Source: Candidatus Cloacimonadota bacterium (GTDB lineage Bacteria; Cloacimonadota; Cloacimonadia; JGIOTU-2). From it: a stretch of 54,442 nt of DNA. The notes beneath the pieces were generated by a model. The model ran no database searches. It saw only the letters and a program-made list of their open reading frames with translations, and was not told the DNA's origin. The stretch covers positions 1 through 54,442 of the forward strand of contig JAFGDR010000059.1 in NCBI GenBank assembly GCA_016932035.1. The letters run 5' to 3'. The first letter of the stretch is position 1. Every line of letters starts with the position of its first letter. Below are positions 11,326-49,246 of this stretch, one piece after another. A program made the translations under genes and the position numbers.

Positions 11326-12450
11326 TTAATATTTTGGAATTGCCTGCATAATTTTCTCACCGAGTGTGATTTGATAGCCATGCATACAGCAATTTGATAA
11401 CAATATAACACCTGTTTTGGTTGCGTTGTTAAATGCCAAATATGACGAATGCCCTGCTGTATCACCACCCGTCCATATGATTTGTTGCCCATCATCCAGT
11501 TCAAGAATGTACCAGGCAATTCCCACATCGCTCGGAGACCCCTGTATTATTGGTTGATGTGCAAGTTCCATTGCCGGATATAATTGCGTGTCATACAATC
11601 CCATATTTGCTTTAAGATAGATGAGTAAATCATTAAGGCAGGATTTAATAAAACCGCACCCATGGAAGATATCATGTGCAGTATAATAGGGAACTTGTTC
11701 GAACTGTGATGAATATCCAAGAGAATAATTAGTCATTTGTTCATCAGTTAGAAACAGTGAACTTCTGCTCATATTGAGTTCGTTAAAAATAGTACTTTCG
11801 AGTACTGTCTGGTAGGATGTTCCATCGACTAATCCAATGATATGTCCAAGCAATCCATATCCTGTATTTGAGTAACTGTATCCGCCACCAGGTTTAAATT
11901 CAAGAACACAGTAGTTCGTAAGATAATCATACACGTCTTCAGTTGTATAGATCCAATATGGATTTAAAGGATCGAAGCCACTGGGAATTGGATAAGACTG
12001 ACCGTCTTCATGAGGAGTGCGAGGTAATCCGGATGTGTGTGTAGCAAGATCACCAATGGTTATCTCAGTTCCTTTGAATGTGGGTAATGTAACATCTTCT
12101 GGGAGATAATGACTTACTGTGTCATCAATAAAGGTTCCCTGGAGATAGGTGTTCGCAAGCAATGTAGCCGTGAATGTTTTAGTCATCGATCCGATATCAA
12201 ATATTGTGTTGATATCTGGAGCATCTTTTGATTCGAGAGATTTTACTCCATAAGCATAGACTATTTCATTTTGTTCTGCATCGATTATTCCGATGATCAT
12301 ACCGACTTCAAGGTGTGGTTCTACTATAGAATCCACCTCTTCATGTAATGTGTTAATTTCAGGAATGGTTACTTTGGAGCTATCACAACTACAAAGCACT
12401 ATTAATAAAGAAATGATGATTAAAGCCAAAGAGATGTTTTTTTTATTCAT
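11326..12450 (-). CDS. Serine beta-lactamase/DD-peptidase-family lipoprotein
   Basis: 374 residues. A hydrophobic leader ends in LIVLCSC, so the mature lipoprotein would start at Cys22; it should sit in the envelope. The class C beta-lactamase/penicillin-binding fold is shown by SMTK (nucleophile Ser88, Lys91), YSN (Tyr193, Asn195) and HTSGLP near 138. The third active-site motif, normally Lys/His-Thr/x-Gly, reads Trp326-Thr-Gly-Gly, so the usual basic residue is absent; esterase or amidase activity, or a weakened enzyme, is possible. The ATG is embedded in the last codons of the upstream permease (8-nt overlap ATGAATAA), and its GGAGG site lies inside that permease's Ser-Glu-Val codons, so translation is probably coupled. 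It is one of the few non-permease genes in operon B. Confidence 0.93.
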   Translation of the reverse strand: MNKKNISLALIIISLLIVLCSCDSSKVTIPEINTLHEEVDSIVEPHLEVGMIIGIIDAEQNEIVYAYGVKSLESKDAPDINTIFDIGSMTKTFTATLLANTYLQGTFIDDTVSHYLPEDVTLPTFKGTEITIGDLATHTSGLPRTPHEDGQSYPIPSGFDPLNPYWIYTTEDVYDYLTNYCVLEFKPGGGYSYSNTGYGLLGHIIGLVDGTSYQTVLESTIFNELNMSRSSLFLTDEQMTNYSLGYSSQFEQVPYYTAHDIFHGCGFIKSCLNDLLIYLKANMGLYDTQLYPAMELAHQPIIQGSPSDVGIAWYILELDDGQQIIWTGGDTAGHSSYLAFNNATKTGVILLSNCCMHGYQITLGEKIMQAIPKY

Positions 12451-14842: not shown

Positions 14843-17236
14843 CTATTCATACTTTATAACCTCTGCTGGATTTGTTCTTGCTGCTTTGATCGTTTGATAG
14901 CTTACTGTAATAATTGATAATATCATCACAGCAAAAGATGAAAGCAAGAAAATCCAGGCTGGCTGTTCTGTACGATATGCAAAACCCTGAAGCCATTTGT
15001 TCATGACTATATAAGCGAGCGGGGATGCAATGAACATCGAAATAAAGATCAAACGAATGAAGTCACCTGATAATCTGATCGTTATACCGCTTACAGAAGC
15101 TCCCATAACTTTTCGAATGCCTATTTCCTTTGTCCTCTTGTGTACAAGAAAAGTAGTGAGACCAAACAGACCAAGGATCGCCAGCAAGATTGCCAGCAAG
15201 CAGAAGTACAAAGCCATCTTTCCAACTTGTTTATCGGATGTATATTGATTGTGAAGGACATCATCGAGGAAATAATATTTGAACATGAAGTTTGGATTAA
15301 AAGCCTGTATCTTCTTCTTAATGATGCTTAGCGTTTCTTCAGTTGGTTTAGTATATGTCTTAATGATGAGAAAATTTGTTTTATCCGGTTGATTATATAT
15401 GATAAGAGGTTCAATTTTATCATGGAGTGAGGATGAATGAAAATCATTCAGGACACCAATAACATTCAGTTTTTCCAGCTCTTCATTTTTACCTCTAAAC
15501 AAGAAGGTTTTTCCCAGAGGTTCTTTCCATCCAAAGGTTTTGGCTGCAGTTTCATTGATTATCACACTTTCGGTTGGATCAGAGGGATAATTTTGTGAAA
15601 AATTTCTGCCATATACAAAGCGCATCCCCAGGGCATCCAGAAAACCTTCATCAACGAAGAGTTTTTGTCCCATCTGCGGCTGATCCATGGGAAATCCTTC
15701 AGGATACATGATTGCTTTCTGTGTTCCGAATCCGGGCACTAATGATGAAAATCCAATCTCTTTGATGTGTGGAATTTCAGAAAGCTGTTCCTTGAGAACC
15801 TCAGCAGAACTATTATGTAAAAGGAGCCTTGTATTAGGAACAATAATCAGATTTTCCTGCGAGAAGCCAGGATCTTTGTCCTGCATAAAATTTATCTGAT
15901 TAAATATCGTGAGAGTCGAAATGATAAGAATAAGAGAAATCGTGAACTGCAGAATCACCAGTATATTTCTTAGATGTGCTTTGCTTGATGTTTGTAAAAA
16001 TCCTGAACGAAGAATTGCAACTGGTTTGAAGCGGGAAAGATAAAATGCGGGATAGCTTCCAGCTATTACGCCCAGAAGAACTGGAAACAGAAGAATGAAT
16101 CCAGTTGCCGTCACAGGATTGAGATAGCCGAGATCGATATGAACACTGAAAATATTCTGCAAACTCGGTCTTGAAAGATCGATAATGACGAGTGTGAGCA
16201 GCATAGCAATAAAACAAAGTATAATGGACTCAGTAAGAAATTGTGCTACAAGTTGTCTCTTTTTTGAGCCGATTGCTTTACGCAGTCCAATCTCACGTGC
16301 ACGTACTCCAGCATTAGCAGTCGAAAGATTGATAAAGTTAATGCAGGCAATAATCAAAATAAAAATAGCAATGGAGAAGAAAATATATAGTGTTTGTATG
16401 TTTGATTGTTTTGCAATGTCTCCTGCCAACTCAGATCGAAGGTGTATGTCCTTAAGAGGTTGCAAGAAGAATGTAAGTTGAGCTCCAGCTGAATGAAGCA
16501 ACTCACCCATATGTGCATCGACAAATGAAACCAGTTTTGCTTCGAAATCTTCGATCGAGGTATCCTCTTTGAGGAGAAGGTAAGTAAAAAATTGGATATG
16601 AAACCAGTTACTCATCGCATCACTATTTTGTGAGAAGAGTGTTTCAAATGATCCCATTATACTAAGTCTGAAATGAGAATTGTACGGGATGTCCTCAATA
16701 ATTCCGGTAATACGATAGGGTGTATTATTTATCTCAACCGTTTCTCCGATTGGATTGCTTTCACCAAAATATTTCTGTGCAATAGAATGAGTAAGAACTA
16801 CAGTAAAAGGTTCTATGAGTGCTATTTGCTTGTCACCACTCTTGAAGGGAAAAGTAAATACCTCAAAAATCGAATTATCCCCATGACAGAAACCTTCTTC
16901 GGTAAAGGTTTTTTCACCGATCTTAACTGTAGCTCTTCGAGGACTTTCAAGTCTTGCTGCGTGCATAACTTCCGGGAAATCCTCTACTAATTGTGGACCC
17001 GCATTTGGCATGGTCATGGGGTAGATCATATGATTTCCAGCTTCAAAATCTACACAGAGTCGAAATATCTGATCTTTGTTTTCATTGAAGCTGTCATAAC
17101 TCATTTCGTAACCTATCCATATCATGATCAGCACGAACGAGGTTATGCCTACGATCAATCCGATAAGATTGATAACACTGAACACCTTGTGATGCTTCAT
17201 ATTCCGTAAACTAAGGGTAAGATAGTTCTTAAGCAT
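14843..17236 (-). CDS. FtsX/MacB-type ABC permease, first gene of operon B
   Basis: 797 residues starting MLKNYLTLSLRNMKHHK. It follows a 225-bp gap that holds a sigma-54 promoter and two operators, so it opens a new operon. Domains: first segment with NLIGLIVGITSF, first FtsX block with RAREIGLRKAIGSKK near residue 314, SYPAFYLSRFKP turn, fifth segment in QFTISLILIISTLTIF, second FtsX block with KEIGIRKVMGAS near 701. The start codon lies inside the last codons of a seven-codon mini-ORF (8-nt overlap), with only a weak CAGG directly before it, so initiation may depend on ribosomes finishing that mini-ORF. C-terminus NPAEVIKYE. Confidence 0.96.
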   Translation of the reverse strand: MLKNYLTLSLRNMKHHKVFSVINLIGLIVGITSFVLIMIWIGYEMSYDSFNENKDQIFRLCVDFEAGNHMIYPMTMPNAGPQLVEDFPEVMHAARLESPRRATVKIGEKTFTEEGFCHGDNSIFEVFTFPFKSGDKQIALIEPFTVVLTHSIAQKYFGESNPIGETVEINNTPYRITGIIEDIPYNSHFRLSIMGSFETLFSQNSDAMSNWFHIQFFTYLLLKEDTSIEDFEAKLVSFVDAHMGELLHSAGAQLTFFLQPLKDIHLRSELAGDIAKQSNIQTLYIFFSIAIFILIIACINFINLSTANAGVRAREIGLRKAIGSKKRQLVAQFLTESIILCFIAMLLTLVIIDLSRPSLQNIFSVHIDLGYLNPVTATGFILLFPVLLGVIAGSYPAFYLSRFKPVAILRSGFLQTSSKAHLRNILVILQFTISLILIISTLTIFNQINFMQDKDPGFSQENLIIVPNTRLLLHNSSAEVLKEQLSEIPHIKEIGFSSLVPGFGTQKAIMYPEGFPMDQPQMGQKLFVDEGFLDALGMRFVYGRNFSQNYPSDPTESVIINETAAKTFGWKEPLGKTFLFRGKNEELEKLNVIGVLNDFHSSSLHDKIEPLIIYNQPDKTNFLIIKTYTKPTEETLSIIKKKIQAFNPNFMFKYYFLDDVLHNQYTSDKQVGKMALYFCLLAILLAILGLFGLTTFLVHKRTKEIGIRKVMGASVSGITIRLSGDFIRLIFISMFIASPLAYIVMNKWLQGFAYRTEQPAWIFLLSSFAVMILSIITVSYQTIKAARTNPAEVIKYE

Positions 17237-17290: not shown

Positions 17291-17306
17291 AGCATTTTTC
17301 GTGCCA
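17291..17306 (-). promoter_or_regulatory. Sigma-54 (-24/-12) promoter of operon B
   Basis: Minus-strand TGGCACGAAAAATGCT: GG at 17305-17304 and GC at 17293-17292, separated by exactly 10 nt, as sigma-54 requires. The -24 half matches the TGGCAC consensus fully; the -12 half is ATGCT instead of TTGCA/T. Transcription should start near 17280, about 44 nt before the first permease ATG. Confidence 0.85.
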
Positions 17307-17369: not shown

Positions 17370-17406
17370 TGTTCGCTGATGGAACACTAGTGTACGAGAG
17401 TGAACA
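17370..17406. promoter_or_regulatory. Two dyad operators (enhancer sites) of operon B
   Basis: Site 1, 17370-17386: TGTTC, 7-nt centre, GAACA. Site 2, 17391-17406: TGTAC, 6-nt centre, GAACA. They are 4 nt apart (starts 21 nt apart) and lie roughly 65-100 bp upstream of the sigma-54 promoter. The order, lengths, spacing and a following CTTTTT are the same as in the operon A control region, so the same NtrC-type activator (46519-47895) is the likely ligand. Confidence 0.72.
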
Positions 17407-34980: not shown

Positions 34981-37101
34981 CTACTGCAAATAGGAAGTGT
35001 TAAAATAGAATCTGTCACCCGGGAAAATCTGGTAGTACATTAGAGGAGTGGCACCATCTTCATATGCTTGTTCCACAAATTCCATATAATCCGGAGAATA
35101 ATCCCCGGCATGCATAGGGAAGAAGACGGTTGGTTCGAGAATCTCAAAGGTTTTATGAACGCCGAGTCGTACTGCTTCATTATCTCCAAAGTTACATCCG
35201 CTTATCGGCATGAAGGCAATATCAATAGGCTTGTTCAGAGATTGCAAATAGTAAATTTCATCGAGGTAGTCACCAGAAAAATCTCTCTCTCGATTTGCAT
35301 GATCACCGGGATGGAGTATGGTCACACCATCTGCTTCGACCATGAAACCTACTCCAGTATCGTTTGAATAGATAGCAGTTATATCCACTCCGTTTACATT
35401 AACTGAAGTACGTGGTTGCATAACAATATACTCTTCATTTGCAACGTGCGGATCAAATCCCATGACGTAGGTGATGTTTGGTATAGAATCATTCCATGTG
35501 AAGATCTCAGGACTATAATGGTCTTGATGTACATGCGAAACCAATACGATCACATCGAGATTTTTTATTTCATTAAAAGTGAACATTCCATTGGCGATTG
35601 ATGGATTATCCGGGGGTCTGTTTTGTCTCCAATAGTCAAAGACTAACAAGTGATCCTTTGTTCGGGCAAACCAGCCACTGTGCGTTACAAACCAGATATA
35701 AATTTCACTCTCTTGAAGGGATGCCTGTAAGAGTTCCTCGGGTTTTGCATCTTCAATAGTTTCATTACCTAAAAGCATTTTTGCGATCCCAAGATTTCCA
35801 TGTTCAAGAGCTAAGTCAGCTGCAGTTTTACCATTGATATCTTTTATACTCTCATCACATCCGCTCTCGATGAGTAATGCAACAATATCACCATATCCCA
35901 TCGCTGCTGCAAGATGAAGCGGTGTTTGTTTGAATTCTTCATTTTTAATATTTACATCAGCACCATGGTCAATAAGAATACCCATGAAGTCAGCAGCCCC
36001 TCTTCTTGAAGCAAGATGCAGTGGGGAAGATTCATAAGTCTGACAGCCAGTTTCACATTCTGCATCGATGATTTCGATTGTTGCACCTTTTTCAAGTAAA
36101 AGTTCCATCATCGAAGTGTCTTCACTCCACAGCGAAAATTTAAGTGGTGTCCAACCGTGTTCGTTTATCTTATTAACATCAGCCCCATGCTCGATCAGAT
36201 ATGTGGCAACTTCAGTATTGCCTCTTTGAGCAGCAATATGTAACGGTGTCGTTCCAGAAGAATCCTCAACATTCGTATCAGCGCCATTCTCGATCATATA
36301 GGTAACAGCTTCCATCGGGGACTTGCCGGCTGAAAAAAACATGGTAGCTCCGTGTTCGTTACGATCGTTATAGCTTAATCCCTTATCCATTAAGAGCTCC
36401 GCAATGTCAAAATGCATTCTAATCGTAGCCCATACTAATGCAGTTTCTCCATTATTCGAAATAGCTGTAACATCTGCACCATTCTCCAGGAGAAATTCAA
36501 CAACGTCTTTATTTCCGACAATCGAAGCATACATGAGCGGTGTTACACCCCATTGATTTGGATGATTAACCGAGAATCCTTTATCTATAAAAAAATCAAC
36601 GATCTCAATATTGCCTGCGAAGGCACTGTTTAGAATGACATTTGTGCCATTAATACTTTCTGCTTCAAGGTCAGCCCCTTTATCGAGGAGGAATTTGATA
36701 AGGTCGAAATTATTATGTGAAGAAGCAAAGAGAAGCGCAGTATTTCCATTTGCATCTTCTGCATTAATGTCGAATCCCTGATCAAGTAGATATTGTACAA
36801 CTTCGAGATGACCATTTGCGGCAGCATTATGAAGAAGATTACTTCCTTCACGATCAATCGTGTTGATATCTGCCCCCTGTGAAATGAGATATTTCATGAT
36901 ATCCAGATTGCCGGCAATTGCTGCTACAGTAAGGGGATCACAGTATTGTTCATCCCGCTCGTTCAGAATATCTGGATTGTCTGTTACAAACGTTGTTACT
37001 TCATCGATATTGTTGTTTTGAATTGCTTCAAATATTGTTGCACTTATCGCTTGTGATGAAATGATAAGTAAAGTAGAAAGGATTATTAGAAATATTTTCA
37101 T
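34981..37101 (-). CDS. Exported ankyrin-repeat protein with C-terminal metallo-beta-lactamase-fold domain
   Basis: 706 residues. A signal peptide (MKIFLIILSTLLIISSQAISA) predicts export. About twelve ankyrin repeats fill residues 25-455 (typical G-x-TPLH-A-x-G and LL-x-GAD-[IV]-N patterns). From about 470 a metallo-beta-lactamase fold follows, with the metal motif SHVHQDHYS near 520, ILHPGDHA near 600 and FPMHAGDY near 675; this is closest to the UlaG-like/L-ascorbate-lactonase-type branch. Ankyrin repeats bind proteins, so a plausible role is a hydrolase docked on a periplasmic partner; the substrate is unknown. TAGGAG precedes the ATG. The gene lies between the second ATPase gene (59-nt gap) and a permease (8-nt gap), so it is probably co-expressed with the permease bank. 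Confidence 0.93.
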   Translation of the reverse strand: MKIFLIILSTLLIISSQAISATIFEAIQNNNIDEVTTFVTDNPDILNERDEQYCDPLTVAAIAGNLDIMKYLISQGADINTIDREGSNLLHNAAANGHLEVVQYLLDQGFDINAEDANGNTALLFASSHNNFDLIKFLLDKGADLEAESINGTNVILNSAFAGNIEIVDFFIDKGFSVNHPNQWGVTPLMYASIVGNKDVVEFLLENGADVTAISNNGETALVWATIRMHFDIAELLMDKGLSYNDRNEHGATMFFSAGKSPMEAVTYMIENGADTNVEDSSGTTPLHIAAQRGNTEVATYLIEHGADVNKINEHGWTPLKFSLWSEDTSMMELLLEKGATIEIIDAECETGCQTYESSPLHLASRRGAADFMGILIDHGADVNIKNEEFKQTPLHLAAAMGYGDIVALLIESGCDESIKDINGKTAADLALEHGNLGIAKMLLGNETIEDAKPEELLQASLQESEIYIWFVTHSGWFARTKDHLLVFDYWRQNRPPDNPSIANGMFTFNEIKNLDVIVLVSHVHQDHYSPEIFTWNDSIPNITYVMGFDPHVANEEYIVMQPRTSVNVNGVDITAIYSNDTGVGFMVEADGVTILHPGDHANRERDFSGDYLDEIYYLQSLNKPIDIAFMPISGCNFGDNEAVRLGVHKTFEILEPTVFFPMHAGDYSPDYMEFVEQAYEDGATPLMYYQIFPGDRFYFNTSYLQ

Positions 37102-44261: not shown

Positions 44262-44945
44262 CTACAGAAGCTTACGGATATTCTCAGTAACGATATGACC
44301 GTCGAATAGCTGGATGATCCTGTGACTGTATTCTGCATCTGAAGGTGAGTGTGTTACCATTACGATCGTCGTTCCTTCTTCATTAAGCTGGGTCAGAAGA
44401 TCCATGACTTCTTCTCCATTAGCAGAGTCAAGATTACCAGTGGGCTCGTCAGCAAGGATTAGTCGAGGATTTGTTACCACTGCTCTGGCTACTGCAACGC
44501 GCTGTTGCTGACCACCAGAAAGTTGCTGTGGGAAGTGATTCTTTCGATGCATGATCTTCATGCGGTCGAGTACTTCTTCCACCTTTTTCTTTCTAATTGA
44601 TGATGACATCTTGAGGTAAAGAAGGGGAAGTTCTACGTTTTCGTAAACGGTGAGTTCGTCAATCAGATTGAAGCTCTGAAAGATGAAGCCAATGTTGCCT
44701 TTTCTTAGATTCGTTCGGCGACGTTCTGTGTATCCCGAGACCTCCTCGCCCATGAATTCAAAGGTGCCTTCCGAAGGATTATCAAGTAATCCAAGTATGT
44801 TGAGCAATGTCGACTTACCACATCCTGAAGGACCCATGACAGCTACGAACTCCCCTTCTTTAATATCAAGATTTACCTTGTTCAAAGCTGTTGTTTCGAC
44901 TTCGTCAGTTCTGTAGACTTTAACGAGATCATTTGTTTTAATCAT
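44262..44945 (-). CDS. ABC transporter ATPase (MacB/LolD-type), first copy
   Basis: 227 residues; cytoplasmic nucleotide-binding subunit. Walker [10 protein letters not shown] (38-46), Q-loop Gln90, signature LSGGQQQ (142-148) followed by RVAVARA, Walker [10 protein letters not shown] (162-170), switch His199. All catalytic motifs are intact and at the same positions as in the copy at 37161. ATG 44945 has AAGGAG 6 nt upstream; the gene lies 20 nt after the adaptor and 38 nt before the first permease. It is the promoter-proximal ATPase and probably the main power unit of the array. Confidence 0.97.
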
Positions 44946-44965: not shown

Positions 44966-46231
44966 CTAATCATTCTTTTTTAATATGAGCACATCAACAT
45001 CACCAAAGGTGTCATAGCTTGAGACGATAACCTGTTCGCCTTCCTGTACACCATCGATGACTTCATAATATTTAGGGTTGTATCTATTTAATCTGATATC
45101 TCTCTTATACGCATTATTGCCGGCTTCGTCAACTACGAAGACCCATTGTCCACCGGTGCTTTGATAGAATCCACCACGGGGTATAAGCAGCGATTCCTTT
45201 GGTTCTCCAAGCTCAAGTTTGATGCGGAAGGTCTGCCCAATGCGCATATTCTCAGGCAGATCACCGATGAATTCCATGTCTATCGAGAACTGACCGTTGC
45301 GAACTTCTGGATATATCTTTGTGACTTCAAGCATAAATGTTTTGTTTGTGTACTCAAACTCTCCGACCAATCCTCTCTGCACGCGGGAAATATAATGCTC
45401 GTCGATCTGAGCATTGATCTTGTATGAATCCAGCACATTGATCTGACCAAGGCGCTGACCTGCACCTTTGGATTCACCTATCTCAGCATTCAGTGATGCA
45501 AGCTGTCCGTTTACCGGTGCTTTCACTTCAAGACTTTCCAGCTTCTTTTGAACGAGATCGAGATTTTGCTGCATGCGGTTTACCGATTCCTCAAGCTGAC
45601 TTATCTGAACATCACGGAAGACCGAGTCCTGCTTTTGAGATTCAATAAGAAGATCTTTTTTATTTACCAGATAATAATAATAATCTTCAGATGTTTGGAA
45701 TTCATCATCAGAGAGTAAGTTTTTATTCATCTCATAGATCTCTTTGTTGATCTCATAATCACGTTTTGCCTTACCGATCGCATAATTAATCTCGATCAGC
45801 TGACTCTTGAGATCGAGTTTGTTCTGTTCCATCAAAAGCCGTGTATTGCGAAGGTTGTTGATCTGCTCAGCAAGACTTGCCTCACGGTTCATAATATTAA
45901 GATGAAGATTTGTATTGCTGAGACGAAGTATCACATCTCCTTCTTTTACCATACTTCCTTCTTCAATTAAGATCTCTTCGACCTGACCACCTTCAAGTGC
46001 GTCGATAAAGACTGTTCGTATCGGTTCCACAGTTCCAGGAATAGTAATATAATCCTGGAAATATCCTTTCTCGACAGTAGCAATGGTCAGCCTTTCGGTT
46101 TGCACTCGCAGCTTCGAGCTCTTATCTGCAAAAATTATGTAATACAGAATGAGCAATACGAAGATACTGGCGAGTGATATCCAAAGGATTTTCTTTGGCG
46201 TCCATGTCTTCTTTTCAATGATTCTGTCCAT
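44966..46231 (-). CDS. Periplasmic adaptor (HlyD/MacA-type membrane fusion protein), first gene of operon A
   Basis: 421 residues. One N-terminal membrane segment (about 15-35) anchors it in the inner membrane. A first half of a lipoyl-like domain follows (GGQVEEILIEEGSMVKEGDVIL, about 80-102), then a long coiled-coil hairpin (about 108-235), the returning lipoyl half (VKAPVNGQLASLNAEIGESKGAG, about 240-262), and beta-barrel and membrane-proximal domains to the end (GEQVIVSSYDTFGDVD). Such proteins bridge an inner-membrane exporter to an outer-membrane channel; no TolC-like channel gene is in the window. The start has a GAGAGG site and lies about 17 nt downstream of the predicted sigma-54 transcription start. 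It is the only adaptor for the whole permease bank seen here. Confidence 0.95.
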   Translation of the reverse strand: MDRIIEKKTWTPKKILWISLASIFVLLILYYIIFADKSSKLRVQTERLTIATVEKGYFQDYITIPGTVEPIRTVFIDALEGGQVEEILIEEGSMVKEGDVILRLSNTNLHLNIMNREASLAEQINNLRNTRLLMEQNKLDLKSQLIEINYAIGKAKRDYEINKEIYEMNKNLLSDDEFQTSEDYYYYLVNKKDLLIESQKQDSVFRDVQISQLEESVNRMQQNLDLVQKKLESLEVKAPVNGQLASLNAEIGESKGAGQRLGQINVLDSYKINAQIDEHYISRVQRGLVGEFEYTNKTFMLEVTKIYPEVRNGQFSIDMEFIGDLPENMRIGQTFRIKLELGEPKESLLIPRGGFYQSTGGQWVFVVDEAGNNAYKRDIRLNRYNPKYYEVIDGVQEGEQVIVSSYDTFGDVDVLILKKND

Positions 46232-46258
46232 GTATGCACCTCTCTTACAAATTACCTA

Positions 46259-46274
46259 TGCATTTTTTGTGCCA
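46259..46274 (-). promoter_or_regulatory. Sigma-54 (-24/-12) promoter of operon A
   Basis: Minus-strand TGGCACAAAAAATGCA: GG at 46273-46272 and GC at 46261-46260, exactly 10 nt between them. The -24 half is perfect TGGCAC; the -12 half is ATGCA. Predicted transcription start is near 46248, just upstream of the adaptor gene. Confidence 0.87.
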
Positions 46275-46339
46275 AAAAAACGAATATTCGGGAAATTGTG
46301 TTTTTTCGGGTATTTGCTGGAAATAATCGAAACAATGAC

Positions 46340-46376
46340 TGTACGGTGACAGGACAGCCATGTACGATATCGTACA
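46340..46376. promoter_or_regulatory. Two dyad operators (enhancer sites) shared by operon A and the regulator operon
   Basis: Site 1, 46340-46356: TGTAC, 7-nt centre, GGACA (one mismatch in the dyad). Site 2, 46361-46376: TGTACGATATCGTACA, a perfect 16-bp palindrome. The 17-4-16 layout and the trailing CTTTTT are the same as at 17370-17406. They lie about 65-100 bp upstream of the operon A sigma-54 promoter and about 100-135 bp upstream of the rightward one, as expected for enhancer sites of an NtrC-type activator. Confidence 0.75.
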
Positions 46377-46392
46377 CTTTTTTAGAAATAGT

Positions 46393-46422
46393 TTGACAAC
46401 CCTAATCCTGAAAAACAGTAAT
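46393..46422 (+). promoter_or_regulatory. Candidate housekeeping promoter for the regulator operon
   Basis: TTGACA at 46393-46398, 18-nt spacer, AGTAAT at 46417-46422. The -35 is perfect but the -10 matches only four of six bases. A short dyad (AACAG-TAAT-CTGTT, 46414-46427) covers the -10. It could supply basal expression of the two-component genes. Confidence 0.35.
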
Positions 46423-46474
46423 CTGTTGTTTGTTTATAAGACCCTAATATTTTTTTTAAATAATTTTTCAGGTT

Positions 46475-46490
46475 TGGTATGTTCTTTGCA
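46475..46490 (+). promoter_or_regulatory. Sigma-54 promoter of the regulator operon
   Basis: Plus-strand TGGTATGTTCTTTGCA: GG at 46476-46477 and GC at 46488-46489, 10 nt apart. The -12 half is perfect TTGCA; the -24 half is TGGTAT instead of TGGCAC. Predicted start near 46501 leaves room for the GGAG site of the regulator gene. It implies that the regulator activates its own gene. Confidence 0.68.
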
Positions 46491-46518
46491 TAAATGAGAG
46501 AAAAAGCGGAGATCCAAT

Positions 46519-47895
46519 ATGAGTCAAAAATTTGGTAAGATACTTGTTGTCGATGATAAGGAAGATATCCTTTTTGCGCTGAAGCTACTTCTTAAAAAAC
46601 ACGTAGAAAAGATCCATACAGAGCAGGATCCGAGTAATATTCCTGAGCTACTGAAGAATGAGTCTTATGATCTGGTCCTTCTGGATATGAATTTCACTGC
46701 GGATATGAGTGGAGGGCAGGAAGGCTACTACTGGATGCAGCGCATCAAGGAGATCGATCCCGCGATTCTTGTGATATTCATAACTGCGTATGGAGATGTG
46801 GAAAAAGCTGTGAAAGCGATCAAAGCTGGAGCTACAGATTTTGTGCTTAAGCCATGGCAGAACGAGAAGCTTCTCACAACCATAAATACTGCTCTTAAAC
46901 TCCGACAGTCACAAACAGAAGCAACCAATCTCAGGATGAAACAGAAGGAATTGAGTGCTGCGCTCGATCAGCCGTTCAGTGATTTTATCGGCGTGTCCGT
47001 AGAAATGAAGAAAGTTTTCGCAACCATTCACAAGGTTGCAGCAACCGATGCCAGCGTGCTTATTCTTGGTGAGAATGGTACAGGAAAAGAGCTGGTAGCG
47101 CGTGCTCTTCATAGGAACTCCAATCGAAAAGATGAGGTTTTCATAAGTGTCGATCTCGGTTCTATTAACGAAAATCTTTTTGAAAGTGAGTTGTTTGGTC
47201 ATGTGAAAGGGGCTTTTACCGATGCTAAGAGTGACAGAACCGGTCGTTTCGAAGTGGCTTCAGGTGGTACTCTCTTCCTTGATGAGATTGGGAACCTGTC
47301 CATGCCGATGCAGGCAAAACTGCTTACAACTCTTGAAAAGATGCAGATTACACGTGTTGGTTCCAATAAGATCATACCCATCAATGTGAGAATGATCTGC
47401 GCAACCAATATGCCGATCCATGCCATGACTCAGGAGAATACTTTCCGTCAGGACTTACTCTATAGGGTAAACACTGTTGAAATTTACCTGCCGCCCTTGA
47501 GAGAAAGGATTGAAGACATTCCCCTTCTTGCTGAACATTTCCTGAAAATCTATGCGAAAAAGTACAACAAAGTAATTGAATCGATAGGGGAAAGAGCAAT
47601 TAAAAAACTGGAACTCTATCCGTGGCCCGGGAACATAAGAGAGTTGCAGCATGCTATTGAAAGAGCTGTGATCCTTAGCGATTCTCCTGTTTTATATCCC
47701 GAAGATTTTCTCCTTTGCGTGAAGGGTGATGAGTCTGATCAGGCAGGTTTTGATACCTATAACCTTGAAGATGTAGAAAAGTCGGTCATTCAAAAAGTGA
47801 TACGTAAACATCACGGAAATATATCTCTTGCCGCAAAAGAGCTCGGGCTTACAAGGACTTCATTATACAGAAGAATGGAAAAATATGATCTATAA
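46519..47895 (+). CDS. NtrC-family sigma-54-dependent response regulator
   Basis: 458 residues. Receiver domain (1-125): acidic pair Asp12-Asp13, phospho-acceptor Asp56 in LVLLDMNF, Thr89, Lys111. AAA+ domain (about 155-390): Walker A GENGTGKE (184-191), sigma-54 contact loop GAFTDA (231-236; Asp replaces the second Gly of GAFTGA), Walker B GGTLFLDEIG (249-258). Fis-type helix-turn-helix at the end (GNISLAAKELGLTRTSLYRR, about 434-453). GGAG site 8 nt before the ATG. It is cotranscribed with the histidine kinase (11-nt overlap) and divergent from operon A. It is the natural candidate to bind the paired dyads at 46340 and 17370 and to drive both permease operons. Confidence 0.97.
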   Translation: MSQKFGKILVVDDKEDILFALKLLLKKHVEKIHTEQDPSNIPELLKNESYDLVLLDMNFTADMSGGQEGYYWMQRIKEIDPAILVIFITAYGDVEKAVKAIKAGATDFVLKPWQNEKLLTTINTALKLRQSQTEATNLRMKQKELSAALDQPFSDFIGVSVEMKKVFATIHKVAATDASVLILGENGTGKELVARALHRNSNRKDEVFISVDLGSINENLFESELFGHVKGAFTDAKSDRTGRFEVASGGTLFLDEIGNLSMPMQAKLLTTLEKMQITRVGSNKIIPINVRMICATNMPIHAMTQENTFRQDLLYRVNTVEIYLPPLRERIEDIPLLAEHFLKIYAKKYNKVIESIGERAIKKLELYPWPGNIRELQHAIERAVILSDSPVLYPEDFLLCVKGDESDQAGFDTYNLEDVEKSVIQKVIRKHHGNISLAAKELGLTRTSLYRRMEKYDL

Positions 47896-49246
47896 AAATT
47901 TTAAGATAAATGTGCTTTTCCGTGTGTTCCTGCTTCTTATTACACTCTTTCTCCTCGTATTTGTTTATTTCAGAACCAGTTTTCACATCACGTTGATATT
48001 TATAGGTGCATTAGTTGTTCTCGAGGTCTATTCTTTGATCTATTATATTGATAGAACCAACCGAGACCTAACAAATCTTCTCGACTCGATACAGTATTCT
48101 GATTTCAGCCGGACGTTTACGATCGAAAAGGAGAGTTCAAGCTACAAAGAATTTAAAAGCGCATTTAATAAAGTGATCACTAAGTTCAAGACTGTACGGG
48201 AGGAAAAAGAAGAGCAATACCATTACCTGCAGAATGTACTTCATCATGTTGGTATTGCTCTAATAGCATTCAGAAAGAACGGCAAAGTGGAGATGATCAA
48301 TAATTTTGCAAAAAAGCTCTTCAGGATCAATAATCTCAGGAACATTCTGTTACTTGAAGATTTTAATAAAGAGCTAGTCGATACCATCCTGAAGCTGAAG
48401 TCCGGCGAACATGCTCTTGTTAAAGTGTATGATAATGATGAACTTCTCCAGCTTGCGATCTTCGCAACCGAGTTTACCTTGAATGAAAGGATTATAAAAT
48501 TAGTCTCTATTCAGAATATTCAGCACGAACTGGAAGAAAAGGAAATGGAGGCATGGCAGAAACTCATTCGTGTTCTTACTCATGAGATCATGAATTCTAT
48601 CACACCAATAGCTTCGATTTCTTCAACGATCAACTCCATGCTTCAGGAAATAGAGAGTGATGCTGATGTGAAGGACGCAGGAGATGTAGATCCGGAGACA
48701 ATCGAAGATATAAGAGAAGCTTTAACAACGATCCATAAACGAAGTACAGGACTCCTTCACTTTGTAGAGACATATAGAAATCTTACCCGTATCCCCAAAC
48801 CGAACTTTCAAATATTCCAGATTAAGAATATTTTCAACCATGTGGATGTGCTTCTTGAAGAGGAATTTAAATCAAAGAATATTGCTTTTTCTTACTCGAT
48901 CTATCCACAGAGTCTTGAGTTGACAGCTGATGAGGATCTTGTACAGCAGGTTGTGATCAATTTGCTTAGAAATGCAATCCACGGAGTTGAGCTTAACGAG
49001 AAACCTTTGATAGAATTAAAGGCGTATGTCAGCGAGAGAGGGCGTGTTGTTATTCAGGTGGTCGATAATGGGACGGGCATACCAGCGGATTCGATTGAGA
49101 AGATTTTTATTCCATTTTATACGACTAAGAAGGAGGGATCTGGTATCGGGCTGAGTTTATCACGCCAGATCATGCGACTGCATGGGGGAACGATCACGGT
49201 GAATTCCGAGCCAAATGTTAAGACTGAGTTTACGTTAAGGTTTTAG
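47885..49246 (+). CDS. Membrane sensor histidine kinase, partner of the NtrC-type regulator
   Basis: 453 residues from ATG 47885, which overlaps the end of the regulator gene by 11 nt; the frame is open upstream but the extra codons lie within the regulator. Two membrane segments (about 8-30 and 35-56) are separated by only a few residues, so there is practically no periplasmic sensor domain and the signal is probably sensed in or at the membrane. Next come a linker of about 60 residues, a PAS-like region (about 115-215), and the H-box with phospho-acceptor His233 (LTHEIMNSITPI). The ATPase domain has N-box Asn363, VVDNGTGIP near 394 and GSGIGLSLSRQI near 418. The H-box plus a short membrane-embedded front end resembles intramembrane-sensing kinases of envelope-stress systems. 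Confidence 0.95.
   Translation: MIYKNFKINVLFRVFLLLITLFLLVFVYFRTSFHITLIFIGALVVLEVYSLIYYIDRTNRDLTNLLDSIQYSDFSRTFTIEKESSSYKEFKSAFNKVITKFKTVREEKEEQYHYLQNVLHHVGIALIAFRKNGKVEMINNFAKKLFRINNLRNILLLEDFNKELVDTILKLKSGEHALVKVYDNDELLQLAIFATEFTLNERIIKLVSIQNIQHELEEKEMEAWQKLIRVLTHEIMNSITPIASISSTINSMLQEIESDADVKDAGDVDPETIEDIREALTTIHKRSTGLLHFVETYRNLTRIPKPNFQIFQIKNIFNHVDVLLEEEFKSKNIAFSYSIYPQSLELTADEDLVQQVVINLLRNAIHGVELNEKPLIELKAYVSERGRVVIQVVDNGTGIPADSIEKIFIPFYTTKKEGSGIGLSLSRQIMRLHGGTITVNSEPNVKTEFTLRF

Follow-up and report, generated by a model that had tools for sequence, protein, structure and literature searches.

Which promoter supplies the regulator of a two-component system whose gene diverges from a large transporter operon, and does that regulator activate its own gene through the operators that serve the operon? 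The question is raised by a divergent intergenic region in the genome of a Candidatus Cloacimonadota bacterium, which an initial annotation had read as an autoregulated two-component switch with sigma-54 promoters facing both ways around one operator pair. The stretch of DNA analysed here, hereafter called the window, spans 54,442 nucleotides and corresponds to the complete contig C59 of this 2.44-Mb genome.

Genomic context of the divergent region

To the left of the gap, operon A is encoded on the minus strand and comprises an HlyD-type adaptor, an ABC ATPase and a long run of MacB/FtsX-type permeases; to the right, the genes of an NtrC-family response regulator and a sensor histidine kinase follow on the plus strand (Table 1). 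The likely start of the kinase gene overlaps the end of the regulator gene by 11 nt, so the two are probably co-transcribed. The closest named relative at the regulator locus is Candidatus Celaenobacter antarcticus (Cloacimonadota), the regulator of which is 90% identical.

The regulator combines receiver (PF00072), AAA+ (PF00158) and Fis-type helix-turn-helix (PF02954) domains in one protein, all above cut-off, and its sigma-54 contact loop, of the GAFTGA type, reads GAFTDA, with GAFTDA or GSFTDA found in nearly all orthologues. Judged by its sequence features, it is an intact NtrC-family sigma-54 activator. The genome of the window also carries rpoN, the gene for sigma-54 itself (PF00309 above cut-off at G000:C10).

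The region 1-46231 encodes about 16 full-length duplicated permeases of the MacB/FtsX type (~800 aa each), all on one strand and divided between operons A and B, together with two ATPases and one adaptor only. Both operons stand behind a sigma-54 promoter with equal operator geometry, and operon B extends past the contig end. Operon A also encodes ankyrin repeats fused to an apparent metallo-beta-lactamase-type domain (34981-37101), and one product of operon B (11326-12450) looks like a serine beta-lactamase or penicillin-binding protein, both assignments being judged by sequence only. The profiles of the darobactin exporter DarBCD (NF038007, NF038008 and NF038010) all scored below their curated cut-offs (280/375, 167/700 and 208/450 bits), and the transporter of the window shares with DarBCD membership of the same superfamily only.

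Table 1. Coordinates of genes, promoters and operator sites in the window.
Feature	Position	Strand	Details
Divergent intergenic region, operon A (HlyD-type adaptor first) / regulator gene	46232-46518	.	287 bp, ORF coordinates
NtrC-family response regulator	46519-47895	+	Pfam PF00072, PF00158, PF25601, PF02954
Sensor histidine kinase	47885-49246	+	HATPase_c; AtoS/ZraS-like below cut-offs
HlyD-type periplasmic adaptor, operon A first gene	44966-46231	-	PF13437; RND_mfp above its cut-off
MacB/LolD-type ABC ATPase, operon A	44262-44945	-	PF00005
Operon A sigma-54 promoter, TGGCACAAAAAATGCA	46259-46274	-	16.5 bits, rank 2 in window; inferred start ~46248
Operator site 1, TGTACGGTGACAGGACA	46340-46356	.	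17-mer type, nearer operon A promoter; tandem partner of site 2
Operator site 2, TGTACGATATCGTACA	46361-46376	.	16-mer type, perfect palindrome; consensus in 91/102 orthologous loci
TTGACA, -35 element of operator-linked regulator promoter	46393-46398	+	conserved TTGAC; weak -10
Regulator-facing sigma-54 promoter, TGGTATGTTCTTTGCA	46475-46490	+	14.4 bits, rank 3; inferred start ~46501
Operon B sigma-54 promoter, TGGCACGAAAAATGCT	17291-17306	-	16.7 bits, rank 1; inferred start 17280
Operon B operator site 1, TGTTCGCTGATGGAACA	17370-17386	.	17-mer type and spacing as 46340-46356
Operon B operator site 2, TGTACGAGAGTGAACA	17391-17406	.	tandem partner, 21 bp from site 1

Sigma-54 promoters of the window

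A weight-matrix scan of both strands of the whole 54-kb window placed the three sigma-54 promoters at the top, and the fourth-ranked match (13.2 bits) lies inside a coding frame. The promoters sit 28-55 bp ahead of the start codons that they face, the one of operon B being 55 bp before the permease gene start at 17236. When the gap was shuffled 20,000 times with dinucleotides preserved, a match of at least 14.4 bits arose 16 times on the plus strand and 19 times on the minus strand, and never on both. The initial annotation was correct in placing sigma-54 promoters in both directions within the gap, coordinates included.

Across three Celaenobacter species, 14/16 positions of the operon A box and 13/16 of the regulator-facing box are invariant, compared with 72/161 in the remaining gap. 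Most f4 Cloacimonadota keep the operon A promoter, as do a number of Bacteroidota loci, with 91-94 or 101-104 bp between it and the operator; these two distances, about one helical turn apart, also prevail when all loci are taken together.

The tandem operators and their likely regulon

Orthologues of the regulator were gathered from 125 genomes of the class, 26 of which gave a match, and from named genomes of other phyla, and 102 non-duplicate regulator loci from several phyla were compared; these include one paralogue of 48% identity (L051), and a truncated locus (L005) was uninformative. A divergent HlyD homologue lies within 1.1 kb of the regulator in 72 of the 102 loci. An operator of the consensus TGTNCGN4CGNACA (also written NGTNCGN4CGNACA) stands upstream of the regulator in 91 of them, at a threshold of at least 9/10 consensus positions, and is accompanied by a second site at 22 bp in 66/91 loci and at 21 bp in 7/91. 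This second site, TGTNCGN4YGNAACA, has a characteristic extra base. The 1.31 Mb of named loci hold 120 operator matches, whereas the reversed template gives 14, and the distances between paired operators and sigma-54 sites concentrate at 90-119 bp.

The operator pair that had been proposed between the divergent promoters of the window is real: its sites lie 21 bp apart, start to start, and the arrangement is repeated with the same spacing at operon B. Relative to the inferred starts, the operator centres fall at about -100/-120 for operon A, -98/-118 for operon B and -132/-153 for the regulator gene. The proximal operator is invariant at 15/16 positions across the three Celaenobacter species, and the recognition helix LTR[TA]SLYRR is, like the operator, near-invariant across phyla. 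Given operator conservation, the fixed spacing to sigma-54 and the near-invariant recognition helix together, this regulator very likely binds the operator and acts from it on the operon A sigma-54 promoter.

The paralogue L051 (G110:C147) has the loop GAFTGA, an altered recognition helix (INRTSLYRR) and an altered operator pair (TGTTCCATATCGCACA, TGTTCCATATCGAACA), with TTGAC 11 nt downstream of the pair; it provides a natural test of the match between helix and operator. The regulator has a patchy distribution. It is missing from 4/8 genomes of its own genus, one of which is only 54% complete, and most of the class's other families lack it too, yet Marinifilum and other Bacteroidota carry orthologues of 70% identity, a pattern that transfer between phyla would be expected to leave.

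A larger regulon in the genome of the window was considered and rejected, and only operon A, operon B and the regulator gene remain as targets. None of the exact operators elsewhere in this genome has an adjoining sigma-54 site, and 18 of its stronger other sigma-54 sites lack a good operator at the right place nearby; a scan allowing one mismatch was swamped by chance (at least 272 matches versus at least 456 in controls). In the fragmented assemblies of the sister genomes G002, G003 and G005, a search for operators like those of operon B gave only the main site at the regulator as convincing.

A conserved TTGAC element belongs to the regulator gene

The comparison of loci also revealed a TTGAC element 7-17 nt past the operator in 25/25 operator-bearing Cloacimonadota loci, where about 0.028 per locus is expected by chance, two figures that do not amount to a probability because the loci are related. 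TTGACA is invariant at 6/6 positions in the three Celaenobacter species. No good -10 element follows it, and a sigma-70 scan of the gap gave one weak 9/12 site elsewhere, with 1.9 expected.

Four genomes (L008, L048, L049 and L050) have no divergent HlyD homologue beside the regulator gene, which there has TTGAC beside one operator but lacks a sigma-54 box. Two of them, G029 (L008) and G110 (L048), encode the HlyD operon away from the regulator, with operator(s) and a sigma-54 promoter of its own (L185 and L184). At L006, an insertion has shifted the regulator gene about 880 bp off, and operator and TTGAC are still 8 nt apart. At operon B of the window, which has no regulator gene beside it, no TTGAC follows the operators. 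Since the element is kept at displaced regulators (G029/G110, L006) and missing at operon B, TTGAC belongs, on this comparison, to the regulator gene. NtrC-family proteins usually act on sigma-54, and it is from the retention of the operator beside TTGAC that we infer a role for it at a housekeeping promoter; the operator probably has a use there that is independent of sigma-54.

The regulator-facing sigma-54 box was found in few lineages

The sigma-54 box facing the regulator gene was found in 5/102 orthologous loci, namely in 3/3 complete Celaenobacter loci and in two of Aminicenantes (L114, L125), and was absent from the other Cloacimonadota orthologues compared. The matrix weights follow a published compilation and were neither fitted here nor calibrated for Cloacimonadota, which makes the absence counts uncertain for distant loci, above all those of Bacteroidota, where more boxes may exist than were counted. 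The three Celaenobacter species have GGTATGT..TTTGCAT in common, and the excess of invariant positions in this box over the rest of the gap is significant (Fisher P 0.005), a conservation that rests on few independent changes because the sister pair is closely related. The background rate of equally strong matches is about 0.002 per 135-bp interval. With 14.4 bits in the window and 11.9 in two sister species, the box scores below most operon A promoters. We take it as real and lineage-specific, and the Aminicenantes cases, few as they are, suggest repeated origins of the same design.

Carboxylicivirga and relatives have two distinct operators, at about -343 and -73, and share a conserved CGGCAYTCTTTTTGG-like sequence about 100 bp before the regulator start (L132, L133, L138, L140, L127). 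This sequence adjoins the -73 operator and looks like a sigma-54 box whose -12 element is broken.

A model of the control region and its alternatives

From sites, geometry and conservation we infer regulator binding, promoter use and the sign of the feedback, and propose the following reading with a probability of roughly two in three. The gap would control transcription in both directions for an NtrC-family two-component system. Before any signal, regulator and kinase would come from an ancestral, operator-linked TTGAC-type housekeeping promoter that is itself probably modulated by the bound regulator. Upon a signal, the phosphorylated regulator would fill both operator sites and open the sigma-54 promoter of operon A, and operon B would be driven likewise from the second operator pair with the same geometry. 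The Celaenobacter-specific sigma-54 promoter would borrow the operators of the gap and thereby add positive feedback on regulator and kinase once the system is on.

On an alternative in line with the initial annotation, which had given the weaker TTGACA promoter as a possible basal source, the regulator gene would be mainly sigma-54-driven in a simple positive loop, with TTGACA as incidental leakage. This is unlikely, even if the box is a good one placed 28 nt before the regulator start codon, the inferred 18-nt leader is sensible and holds GGAG, a locus of Aminicenantes (L125) has the same design with sigma-54 boxes both ways around the operator, and ZraSR offers a precedent (PMC4987338). Against it stand the invariant TTGACA in the genus and the universal presence of TTGAC in the phylum's operator-bearing orthologues that lack a sigma-54 box. 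On the comparison of loci, the proposed ranking of the regulator's two promoters is thus reversed, TTGACA being no minor basal source. Activation of operon A and of the regulator's own gene via sigma-54 is favoured by the shared operators, the intact activator, rpoN and the genus-conserved box. Given the conserved TTGAC and the rarity of the regulator-facing box, positive feedback through sigma-54 is plausible as a lineage-specific addition. A switch, or bistability, would hinge on cooperativity, on phosphatase activity and on the sign of regulation at the older basal promoter, which the regulator may either activate or repress.

Negative autoregulation, in which the regulator represses its own TTGAC basal promoter and the regulator-facing sigma-54 box is weak or unused, appears distinctly improbable. 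PspF of E. coli provides the pattern: the activator gene is transcribed from a sigma-70 promoter, divergently from the sigma-54 target pspA, with the enhancer sites between the two, and PspF has no receiver domain. The layout here is similar, and autoregulation could be of either sign. Repression would agree with the operators kept beside TTGAC away from any nearby sigma-54 promoter (L008, L048-L050) and, in Ancylomarina, with a second operator that immediately follows a putative Bacteroidota -7 element (L069, L070, L075), a position that fits repression in that genus. However, the operator mostly ends 7-17 nt upstream of the -35 element and does not lie over the promoter, and the regulator-facing box is conserved in Celaenobacter.

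That the palindrome and its T-run form an intrinsic terminator or a chance repeat can be dismissed as highly improbable: a terminator scan flags TGTACGATATCGTACA-CTTTTTTAGA, and a perfect 16-bp palindrome arose in 244/20,000 gap shuffles (~1%), which makes the palindrome alone weak evidence for an operator, but positions 4 and 13 vary in relatives without pairing being kept (e.g. TGTACGGTGACGGACA, TGTCCGCCTGCGAACA), and the tandem partner at 22 bp, the excess over control sites and the fixed sigma-54 spacing all speak for an operator.

Short cationic peptides in relatives

Related Cloacimonadota encode cationic peptides of 19-25 residues with a WNER motif, e.g. MKKMKKSILARWNERKARFGGTR followed by MKHTKLVSKWNERRNRYVGRR, at L182 (G108:C203, 1501-2950), L179 (G109:C117) and L217 (G029:C134), with further copies at L207-L210, L213, L219 and L226. 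The pattern gave 22 matches, all in 4/125 genomes of the class, versus 1 control match; no Pfam family was assigned to the peptides, and none was found in the window or its genome. An operon often holds two or three of these peptides, which have good ribosome sites and lie about 50 bp past near-consensus sigma-54 promoters. Several units, including three in tandem in G108, bear the tandem operators of this regulator, and others differ upstream. In G108, G109 and G029, where peptide operons stand behind this operator and near-perfect sigma-54 promoters, the WNER peptides may be cargo or signals for the exporter. That the whole system is part of a wider class of sigma-54 circuits around tiny secreted peptides, with the self-activation in Celaenobacter as the feedback arm of a peptide-responsive circuit, seems a doubtful extension.

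Relation to known systems

Literature searches gave no paper on this two-component system. In ZraSR/zraP of E. coli and Salmonella, an NtrC-family two-component regulator acts on divergent sigma-54 promoters for its target and its own operon (PMC4987338). The sequence of the window shows this layout, with divergent sigma-54 promoters for target and regulator and shared enhancer sites. Unlike in ZraSR/zraP, the target operon encodes an HlyD/ABC/FtsX-type transporter, the regulator gene precedes that of the kinase, the operator is accompanied by a conserved housekeeping-type element, and the sigma-54 feedback promoter is limited to one genus in the phylum. The regulator scored 343.9 bits with the ZraR equivalog NF007689 (curated cut-off 760); by sequence, the circuit would work like ZraSR, yet the protein is not ZraR. 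PspF/pspA differs in turn, the sites here being upstream of the -35 element. Most likely, the circuit represents ZraSR/zraP logic laid over a PspF/pspA-like layout, in which a stress-type regulator probably switches on a back-to-back large transporter operon.

Sigma-54 control of FtsX/MacB-type permeases (COG0577) has been predicted in Bacteroidia and others in a promoter survey (PMC12316311). In the window, operons A and B both encode such permeases and follow sigma-54 promoters, and comparison of loci adds to the survey a likely cognate regulator, its operator and the geometry.

A design known in outline from E. coli is assembled differently here. The comparison yields an operator code, open to test, for a two-component system that is so far uncharacterised and whose orthologues occur in Cloacimonadota, Bacteroidota, Aminicenantes and other lineages. 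Relatives have further targets to which the same operator points, among them the very short cationic peptides, a family that is still unannotated. The feedback wiring of one regulator would differ by lineage, an old operator-linked housekeeping promoter having been joined by sigma-54 self-activation in one genus.
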